Notes under the pieces: model-generated | Told to the model about the DNA's origin: nothing | Databases searched by the model: none | Seen by the model: only the letters and a program-made list of their open reading frames with translations | Program-made: the position numbers and the translations under genes | Assembly: GCA_022824685.1 (NCBI GenBank) | Contig: JAJDZJ010000007.1 | Span: forward strand, 1 to 64,000 | Length of the DNA: 64,000 nt | Direction: 5' to 3' | DNA from: Caldilineaceae bacterium | GTDB taxonomy: Bacteria; Chloroflexota; Anaerolineae; Caldilineales; Caldilineaceae | Part shown: in pieces, positions 59,559-63,990 of the stretch | Layout: each line of letters opens with the position of its first letter | Position numbering within the stretch: position 1 is the stretch's first letter

Positions 59559-59671
59559 CTGCCCTACTGGAAGCGGGGTTCCTCCACAGGCGCCTCAGCC
59601 GTCGATCGGGCAGCCATCTCCTGCGAGGGCGGGACTCCCTCTCGCGGGGCCCTCGACTCCTCAGCCCGATA

Positions 59672-61048
59672 TTACGGCCGCCTCCGAACCTGCTCCTGCG
59701 GCGCTGCATCTTCACTGCCCCGGACCGCCCTGCCAATTCCAAAGAAGAACAGCCCCAATGGGACGCAAATCAGGCTGCCGCTGACAAAACCCCACAGGCC
59801 CAACCAGACAATGCCAATGACCTGCGCCTGTATCTGACCGAAAAAGTCAGGCCGAAAACCCTGCGCCGCCAGCAACCCCGTGACGCCCTGCCCTTGAACA
59901 CCTAGATAGCTGCCCGCGCCTATCTGCTGCCAGCCAGCGCCGGCCGCGCCGTCGGCGAATATGCCCACACCCAGCAGCCCAATCGCAGCCGGCAATCCCG
60001 CTACGGCAAAGATCCCGGAGCCGTCGTCAAGGCGGAACACTCTGTTAAGCGTAAAAGTCAAGAATGGTACACTGCCCCCGGCAAGCAGTCCAATCAAGAG
60101 CGCACCCGTATGCCCGGGAAACGGCCCCGCGGCCAGTCCCGCAATCGCGCCCGCCGCCAAACCCCGGGCGCTCATCCCCGGGTCGCTCGTCCCGGTCACG
60201 AACCACGTGTATAGCAAGGGAACGGTCACACCGCCGGCGGCATAGAGCAGCCCGTTGACTGCAGTTCGCACAACCGTAAACGCATCCATTCCCGGCTGCT
60301 GAACAGGGCTCGCCCAAGTCCAGGCCAGCACACCGGCCATCACGAACATGGCCCCCACAACCGAGAGCAGCGGCAAATGCACTGCCGGCAAGCCAGAGCG
60401 CGCGGCATCCGTCTGTGCATTCCTCCGCGGCGGCCAAACGAGCAGAGCGGCAAGTGACGCTGAAGCTGAGACCAGAAACACGGTGCCCCCGCCGCCAAAG
60501 TCGACCAAACCGTGCCCCAGGCCCGCATTCCGCCCCAGCGCGGCCAGCCAGCCTCCCCCCTGCACCCAATTTCCCGCCAGAGGATACACTATCCCGCCGA
60601 GCGCCAGCGCGACAATCAAGGTCGCGAGCGCCGGCGCCCGCCCCCGCAACGCCAGCACCGGCAACAACGCCGCCGCCGCCGCCCACGGCGCATGCGCCAG
60701 AAACAGGCCCATCGCTGTCGGCGTCGCCGCCGGACCCGTCAGAAACCAGCCCTCCAGCCCCGCCGCTATCCATCCCACGCCCCATCCTTCCGGAAGCGGG
60801 GTCCACCCCCGCAACAGGGCCGACAGCTCAGGATGATCCGTGTAGAGGAATCCAACGCTCCCGAACTGAAAGGCAAACCCTAGTGCCCAGTAGCCCACCC
60901 CTCCAAGACAAAAGGCTGCCAATCCGCCCAGCGCTGCATCCCACGCCGTCTCAGCTCGCATCCCAGAGGCCGCGACCAGAATCAAGCCGGCCGGCAGCAG
61001 AAATGCAAAACCAGCGGCGGTCAGATGCCAGAAAAAAGTGCTGTCCAT
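59672..61048 (-). CDS. Amt/Rh/MEP-family membrane protein, divergent, twin-His motif absent
   Basis: Polytopic; LGHGLVDFGGGGTVFLVSASASL and FRLDDGSGIFAVAGLPAAIGLLGVGIFAD align to Amt signatures. Confidence 0.8.
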   Translation of the reverse strand: MDSTFFWHLTAAGFAFLLPAGLILVAASGMRAETAWDAALGGLAAFCLGGVGYWALGFAFQFGSVGFLYTDHPELSALLRGWTPLPEGWGVGWIAAGLEGWFLTGPAATPTAMGLFLAHAPWAAAAALLPVLALRGRAPALATLIVALALGGIVYPLAGNWVQGGGWLAALGRNAGLGHGLVDFGGGGTVFLVSASASLAALLVWPPRRNAQTDAARSGLPAVHLPLLSVVGAMFVMAGVLAWTWASPVQQPGMDAFTVVRTAVNGLLYAAGGVTVPLLYTWFVTGTSDPGMSARGLAAGAIAGLAAGPFPGHTGALLIGLLAGGSVPFLTFTLNRVFRLDDGSGIFAVAGLPAAIGLLGVGIFADGAAGAGWQQIGAGSYLGVQGQGVTGLLAAQGFRPDFFGQIQAQVIGIVWLGLWGFVSGSLICVPLGLFFFGIGRAVRGSEDAAPQEQVRRRP

Positions 61049-62928: not shown

Positions 62929-63990
62929 GTGACCGGATGTGTCGAGAATGCGCGACGGCGCCGCGCTAACATGAACTGTCAGAGCCATACAAGAGTGACC
63001 GCCCCCTTTTGCGGGCTGGCGAAAAATAGGGCCAGTAAGGTTCTCGCCAGATTCCCATCGGCCCATTTCGTTTACATTCTCTTCTTTTCCCTGTTGCTGT
63101 CATCCTGCTCTCCAACGCGGCCTGTAATGAAAATCGGTCTGTTGGCTCCCTTTGAGGGGATGCACCGGGAGAGCGGATACAATGCGCTGGCCGCCATGCG
63201 CGCCGCGCTCAACGACCATCCTCTGGACGGGGTTGATGTCCTGCCCCTCGCGTTGGACACCTCAGCCAGCCCGTCGCAAGCGCGCCGCGCCGCCCTGAAA
63301 GTGCTCCGAGACGATTCTGTGGTTGCGGTCGTCGGGCCGCTGCAGACAAAAGAGGTCTCCGCTGTGGCAGAGGTAATGGCTGCTTCGAATCTGGACTGGC
63401 AGCTGCCCGCAACCCCGGCCACGCAAGAGGAGGCCCGGGCGTTCATCGAGGCCCTGATCTTCGAGATCGATGGCCGGAACATCGCGCTCGCCGGCTTCGA
63501 TGACGGCTGGCCGCAACTGTCCCCAAGCCAGTGGTCCTCCTCCACCGGAAAGACGGTATCCGCCGCGGCTGACGAAAGCGATGCCGCAAAGGCAGACGGC
63601 GTTCTCTGGCTGGGGGATGCCCCGGGGGGCGCCGCGTTCCTGGCCCGCCTGAGAGCGCGCAACCATAGCGTGCCCTTCTGGACAACGACCGTTGCTGCCG
63701 ACCCGGTCTTCGCCTACCTTGTCCAGGACTACCTGGCAGGTGACCCGCCTGGCCCCGTCTACTGGGCAGCCCATCTGGACGAAAATCCCAGCCTCTACTC
63801 AGGCTGGGCTGATGAAAACGCGCAGCACGCGCCAGCCGCTTTCGCCGTCTACCTTGCTACGCGTAGGGCCCTGACCAAGTTGGCCGGCCAGCCGGTCCTT
63901 TCGAACAACGCGGGGCTGGCAGTCTTTAGGTTCGACAACGAGGGGAACAGTCACATGGCGCATTTTGTACCCCTTCACCCAAGTCCGTGA
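62929..63990 (+). CDS. ABC-type branched-chain amino acid-like substrate-binding lipoprotein
   Basis: SLLLSSCSPTRPVMKIGLLAPFEGMHRESGYNALAAMRAALND; VVGPLQTKEVSAVAEVMAASNL. Confidence 0.82.
   Translation: MTGCVENARRRRANMNCQSHTRVTAPFCGLAKNRASKVLARFPSAHFVYILFFSLLLSSCSPTRPVMKIGLLAPFEGMHRESGYNALAAMRAALNDHPLDGVDVLPLALDTSASPSQARRAALKVLRDDSVVAVVGPLQTKEVSAVAEVMAASNLDWQLPATPATQEEARAFIEALIFEIDGRNIALAGFDDGWPQLSPSQWSSSTGKTVSAAADESDAAKADGVLWLGDAPGGAAFLARLRARNHSVPFWTTTVAADPVFAYLVQDYLAGDPPGPVYWAAHLDENPSLYSGWADENAQHAPAAFAVYLATRRALTKLAGQPVLSNNAGLAVFRFDNEGNSHMAHFVPLHPSP

Follow-up and report, generated by a model that had tools for sequence, protein, structure and literature searches.

Ammonium transporters of the Amt/Mep/Rh superfamily have a conduction pore lined by a pair of histidines (the twin-His pair), and Asp160 is an essential residue in the Escherichia coli member AmtB. 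The pore histidines are presumably absent from RhCE and RhD, which we take to be non-transporters that form mixed trimers with RhAG. The twin-His is stated to be invariant in natural Amt/Mep/Rh proteins, save for some fungal Mep proteins in which Glu occupies the first position; the AmtB double variant H168A/H318A binds NH4+ and does not transport it, and the single-His variants, H168A or H318A, gain channel activity for hydrated NH4+ and K+ (PMC7447429). Growth on ammonium is not sustained by AmtB or Mep2 once both histidines are mutated, and the W212A variant of AmtB is inactive (PMC3647058). Ne-Rh50 lacks the W148/S219 recruitment site and keeps the twin-His (PMC10433425).

The gene described here lies in a window of 64,000 nucleotides (Caldilineaceae bacterium, assembly GCA_022824685.1, contig JAJDZJ010000007.1, positions 1 to 64,000 of the forward strand), the whole stretch of DNA that was analysed; the same genome carries two further Amt genes, L001 and L002, both canonical. 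The window protein matches the Pfam model PF00909 (Ammonium_transp) over residues 7-428 with 101 bits, above the gathering score of 23.2, and falls below the threshold of the NCBIfam amt model TIGR00836 (108 bits, cut-off 343). It belongs to the Amt/Mep/Rh superfamily but lacks defining features of canonical ammonium transporters, and no description of a prokaryotic Amt devoid of the twin-His was found in the part of the literature that was searched.

Table 1. Coordinates of the gene, of the reading frame beyond its stop and of the codons aligned with functional residues of AmtB (fractions refer to the 38 family members unless stated)
Feature	Position	Strand	Remarks
CDS of twin-His-less Amt-like membrane protein	59672..61048	(-)	458 aa + stop, 11 predicted TM segments
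In-frame continuation past stop	59567..59671	(-)	35 codons matching the C-terminal tail of orthologues; profile match reads through one TAA
His119 codon = AmtB Q104	60692..60694	(-)	3 residues before Trp122; His in 32/38, T or A in deep branch
Trp122 codon = AmtB F107 (Phe gate / S1)	60683..60685	(-)	W 36/38
Gln163 codon in GNWVQGGGW = AmtB W148 (ammonium recruitment site S1)	60560..60562	(-)	Q 38/38; canonical W 53/53
Asp183 codon = AmtB D160, retained	60500..60502	(-)	D 38/38; canonical D 53/53
Phe191 codon = AmtB H168 (first pore His)	60476..60478	(-)	F 36/38, H 2/38
Trp243 codon = AmtB F215 (Phe gate)	60320..60322	(-)	W 38/38
Ala350 codon = AmtB H318 (second pore His)	59999..60001	(-)	His 0/38: A16 T9 L3 F3 S2 + others

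E. coli AmtB was the yardstick in an alignment that further comprised the window protein, orthologous sequences and additional Chloroflexota Amts; 38 family members were scored, with 53 canonical Amts as controls (24 from this alignment, 29 from the bacterial family of the window). The register was counted gapless from the invariant Asp (AmtB D160, D183 in the window protein), H168 lying at D+8 and H318 at D310+8. The sequence-only reading of this gene had both pore histidines replaced, the first by Leu and the second by Ala, with the Asp of a VDF motif retained. The Asp and Ala350 are borne out by this count and no other His falls at either twin position, the first site being Phe191; Leu192 lies one residue too far and was rejected as the equivalent of H168. 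The register at this site is fixed because two orthologues, L019 (GTVHL) and L030 (GSVHL), place a His precisely at the H168 column, the second His being absent from both. In the tree these two are scattered within the Phe-bearing clade. L044 (42% identity) reads DYAGSGVVF where the canonical sequence is DFAGSGVVH, and in six deep members (L035, L036, L038-L040 and L043) a one-residue gap is required at site 1, which makes the residue there less sure. Homologues with Leu and Ala at the two sites had been envisaged; the search did return a family, whose 38 members uniformly lack the second His, though with Phe or, in two cases, His at site 1 instead of Leu.

Other functional positions are replaced as well. 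W212 of AmtB corresponds to V240 (mostly Val, Ser or Ala across the 38 members), T273 to L305 (Leu in 36/38) and N216 to T244 in the window protein, while the S1 site F107/W148/S219 reads W122/Q163/S247, so that Ser alone is retained. The canonical controls carry H, H, W, F, F, W, S and D at the corresponding sites in 53/53 cases, with no exceptions. His119 is the sole near-conserved intramembrane His in the 38 members; the family alignment shows no titratable residues lining the aligned pore, nor the C-terminal Amt motif (GLD..EHG..AY) associated with trimer coupling and GlnK. Since the twin-His-less pattern is common to the 38 homologues and missing from the 53 canonical Amts, it is not a matter of chance.

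An AF2 model of the monomer, built from 37 aligned sequences, has a mean pLDDT of 83 and a pTM of 0.86. Foldseek searches of the PDB with it gave Amt/Mep/Rh structures only among the best 50 matches listed (E down to 1.8e-14), led by Ks-Amt5, Sd-Amt1, Af-Amt1 and AmtB with scores too close for their order to be meaningful. As predicted by this model, the window protein adopts the Amt fold. The claim of an intact 458-residue Amt fold is thus upheld by PF00909, AF2 and Foldseek as regards the fold and is qualified at the C-terminus, where the window copy ends with TAA at a codon that is CAA in the 96% identical relatives L004/L005. Either the window copy is shortened at its C-terminus or the TAA is an assembly error; another genome of the same bacterial family (G332) also has one TAA within its profile match. 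The tail of the orthologues shows weak conservation (30-83% identity, compared with 75-95% in the rest of the protein), hence loss of its 35 residues may be tolerated.

The gene is maintained under strong purifying selection, as dN/dS values between orthologue pairs are 0.08-0.25. The location of the constraint was examined as mean column entropy, in zones set by the helices of the model and dependent on a MAFFT alignment at ~20-30% identity. The overall mean is equal in both sets (1.33). In the canonical Amts, the cytoplasmic loops are the most conserved zone (1.02) and the periplasmic loops stand at 1.43, whereas in the twin-His-less family the cytoplasmic loops are the least conserved zone (2.06) and the periplasmic loops stand at 1.11. 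Conservation on the periplasmic face comprises three invariant Trp in the TM2-TM3 region, GNWVQGGGW, LGHGxVD and the Trp/Trp pair replacing the Phe gate. By these column values, constraint has been lifted from the face that contacts GlnK and links the subunits, and the outer face is now the conserved part.

A scan with the window protein of one genome per species over 84,980 species, whose reach is close relatives only, gave 37 relatives, all of them in the Chloroflexota and mostly in the Caldilineaceae. The gene is present in 39/46 genomes of the bacterial family of the window; the seven non-carriers are all four genomes of genus g180 and three less complete genomes (69-89%). The g180 genomes (G301-G304) lack the gene despite 94-98% completeness; three of them carry three Amts that score as canonical, and the remaining one carries two. 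In a phylum-wide sample of 300 genomes, related twin-His-less proteins (L043, L044, L046, L047, L048, L052 and L066) occur in a few further lineages.

In a careful maximum-likelihood tree, from which the pore columns were left out and which is unrooted with long branches for L048 and L066, the family forms one clade with the five additional twin-His-less proteins of the data set (98/93 support), and the canonical Amts all lie beyond a 100/100 branch. L045 is placed just outside the twin-His-less clade; it keeps the second His alone (Gln/His) and still has W148. Labelling the tree for none, one or both histidines, two changes suffice. A loss of the first His, then of the second, and then, in the family only, of W148 is a reading of this tree and not a proof. 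These proteins are best read as a vertically kept, ancient, non-assimilatory paralogue of the ammonium transporters in the Caldilineaceae and other Chloroflexota. The gene for the one-His relative L045 follows a gene for a Ras-like small GTPase (L111:121-2170), and the two lie downstream, on the same strand, of an apparent amino-acid ABC transporter cluster.

The window gene, whose product ends after TM11, has thpR, SCO1 and mltG as neighbours and stands alone. The convergent neighbour is the LigT/thpR RNA phosphoesterase gene in 28/38 stretches, that of the window included; the divergent gene on the upstream side is mltG (YceG) in the genus of the window and encodes a TMEM260-like O-mannosyltransferase in others. 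These neighbours were discarded as a functional hint, for thpR, SCO1, mltG and the TMEM260-like gene are kept in place with unrelated functions. Two distant twin-His-less relatives (L112 and L115) adjoin a rodA/minD-like cell-shape cluster, which together with the mltG gene beside the window gene makes a link to the cell envelope possible. An ORF resembling periplasmic binding proteins (PF13458) directly follows mltG at 62929-63987 of the window.

No PII gene was seen near the twin-His-less gene in the stretches around family members, and none was found in the genome assembly of the window, although its congeners have a canonical amt with one or two glnK genes beside it. The missing PII is probably an assembly gap, because the canonical amt L001 lies ~200 bases from the end of its contig (C142 of G000), at the place where glnK follows in other genomes of the genus; on the same grounds the missing PII was rejected as evidence for a PII-free life.

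With the twin-His bridge, the W148/F107 recruitment site and W212 replaced, the NH4+ deprotonation and proton-wire route would be lost. To judge from the published AmtB variants, it is very unlikely that this established route works in the window protein; it has lost the two His as well as W212 and has Phe, not Ala, at site 1, so the known route is unlikely to support electrogenic transport of ammonium. The constraint has moved to the periplasmic face, with the outer vestibule rebuilt; a small ligand may bind in this vestibule, and its binding may then be relayed or an uncharged species alone let through. The window protein is perhaps, then, a receptor or a passive neutral pore. The reading favoured here, at a probability of about 0.5, is that of a non-assimilatory Amt paralogue that binds a small ligand at the rebuilt periplasmic vestibule and carries no ammonium ion inward; it is preferred because that vestibule is both conserved and rebuilt. 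The protein has probably ceased to serve as an ammonium transporter, though selection preserves the gene. Against this reading count the retention of Asp183, which fits some residual ammonium chemistry, and the channel activity of the single-His AmtB variants, by which a change of histidines need not close the pore.

The main rival is an electroneutral channel, through which small uncharged molecules such as NH3, CO2, methylamine or another gas would pass by way of an all-hydrophobic, His-less pore. The residues at the two His sites, hydrophobic or small (F, A/T), the want of a titratable residue in the aligned pore and the likewise missing W148/S219 recruitment site of Ne-Rh50 (PMC10433425) agree with such a channel; however, Rh50 retains the twin-His, the bulky gate aromatics W122, W243 and F191 suggest a narrow or closed pore, and the H318 site is variable, unlike a selected pore lining. 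We regard this channel as unlikely, but as deserving consideration. An accessory subunit that tunes or anchors canonical Amts in mixed trimers, as in the case of RhCE/RhD with RhAG, is improbable: AmtB-type proteins are trimers and a canonical Amt is present in 39/39 carrier genomes of the family, but the gene is unlinked to any canonical amt, an identity of ~20-30% makes a common trimer interface unlikely, and conservation is lowest in the cytoplasmic loops and the C-terminal region, through which subunits are coupled.

The sequence-only reading had suggested transport of something else or a sensor. A function other than ordinary ammonium uptake agrees with the reading preferred here, while a sensor of the known kind finds little in its favour. 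A role in cytoplasmic signalling, as a sensor or transceptor for ammonium, is quite doubtful, for although the nearest solved sequences and folds include Ks-Amt5 (6eu6) and Sd-Amt1 (8qj3), the transporter Af-Amt1 scores an equal TM, the protein and its neighbours show no fused or linked cytoplasmic output domain or signalling gene (neither glnK nor a kinase is adjacent), the cytoplasmic face is poorly conserved, and the cation site of Ks-Amt5, itself a twin-His-bearing protein, is absent. Slightly less credible still is a non-selective channel or one for a different cation, e.g. K+ or an amine: the AmtB singles H168A and H318A conduct hydrated NH4+ and K+ and Mep2 double variants did pass K+, but AmtB H168A/H318A gave no K+ current (PMC7447429) and the bulky Phe at site 1 would not hydrate the pore. 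A functionless decaying duplicate or an assembly artefact, to which the stop removing the tail of the window copy might point, is largely refuted by the dN/dS values, the near-universal presence in the family and the conserved place beside thpR.

A broader proposal, advanced more tentatively than the favoured reading, is that a Chloroflexota subfamily of the Amt fold lost the whole mechanism of ammonium transport step by step, beginning with the first His and followed by the second His and then the exchange of W148 for Gln, and took on a new periplasmic function in which it binds or conducts some ligand that is not the ammonium ion. The existence of a conserved bacterial clade without either His contradicts twin-His invariance as a general statement. 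Purifying selection, together with normal Amts in the same cell, makes these genomes a natural experiment on the role of the histidines, and the one-His, no-His and W148Q relatives constitute a series for testing the order of loss.

Compared with AmtB and A. fulgidus Amt1, the window protein has PF00909, length, Asp160, Tyr140 and the fold in common, with TM-scores to 1u77 and 2b2f of 0.65-0.69 by query and 0.76-0.80 by target. It differs from a canonical Amt in lacking both pore His, W148, both gate Phe (now Trp), W212, T273 and N216, as well as the C-terminal motif and the glnK linkage. Rh folds match less well than Amt folds (TM by query 0.56-0.58 for Rh50 and 0.48-0.57 for the human Rh chains), and Foldseek revealed no specific relationship to Rh; the loss of the W148-type recruitment site is shared with Ne-Rh50, the retained twin-His being the difference. 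With the sensors Ks-Amt5 and Sd-Amt1, its top Foldseek and phmmer matches, it shares the notion of an Amt that binds without transport; Ks-Amt5, however, has W144/S227, the Phe gate, the twin-His and a histidine kinase domain, and its intramembrane cation site Q24/E31/N47/D50/T51 aligns with P19/A26/G42/A45/F46. The fungal Mep1/Mep3 proteins have likewise lost the first pore His naturally, but they carry an acid (Glu) at that site and are still active transporters, whereas both sites are non-polar in the window protein.
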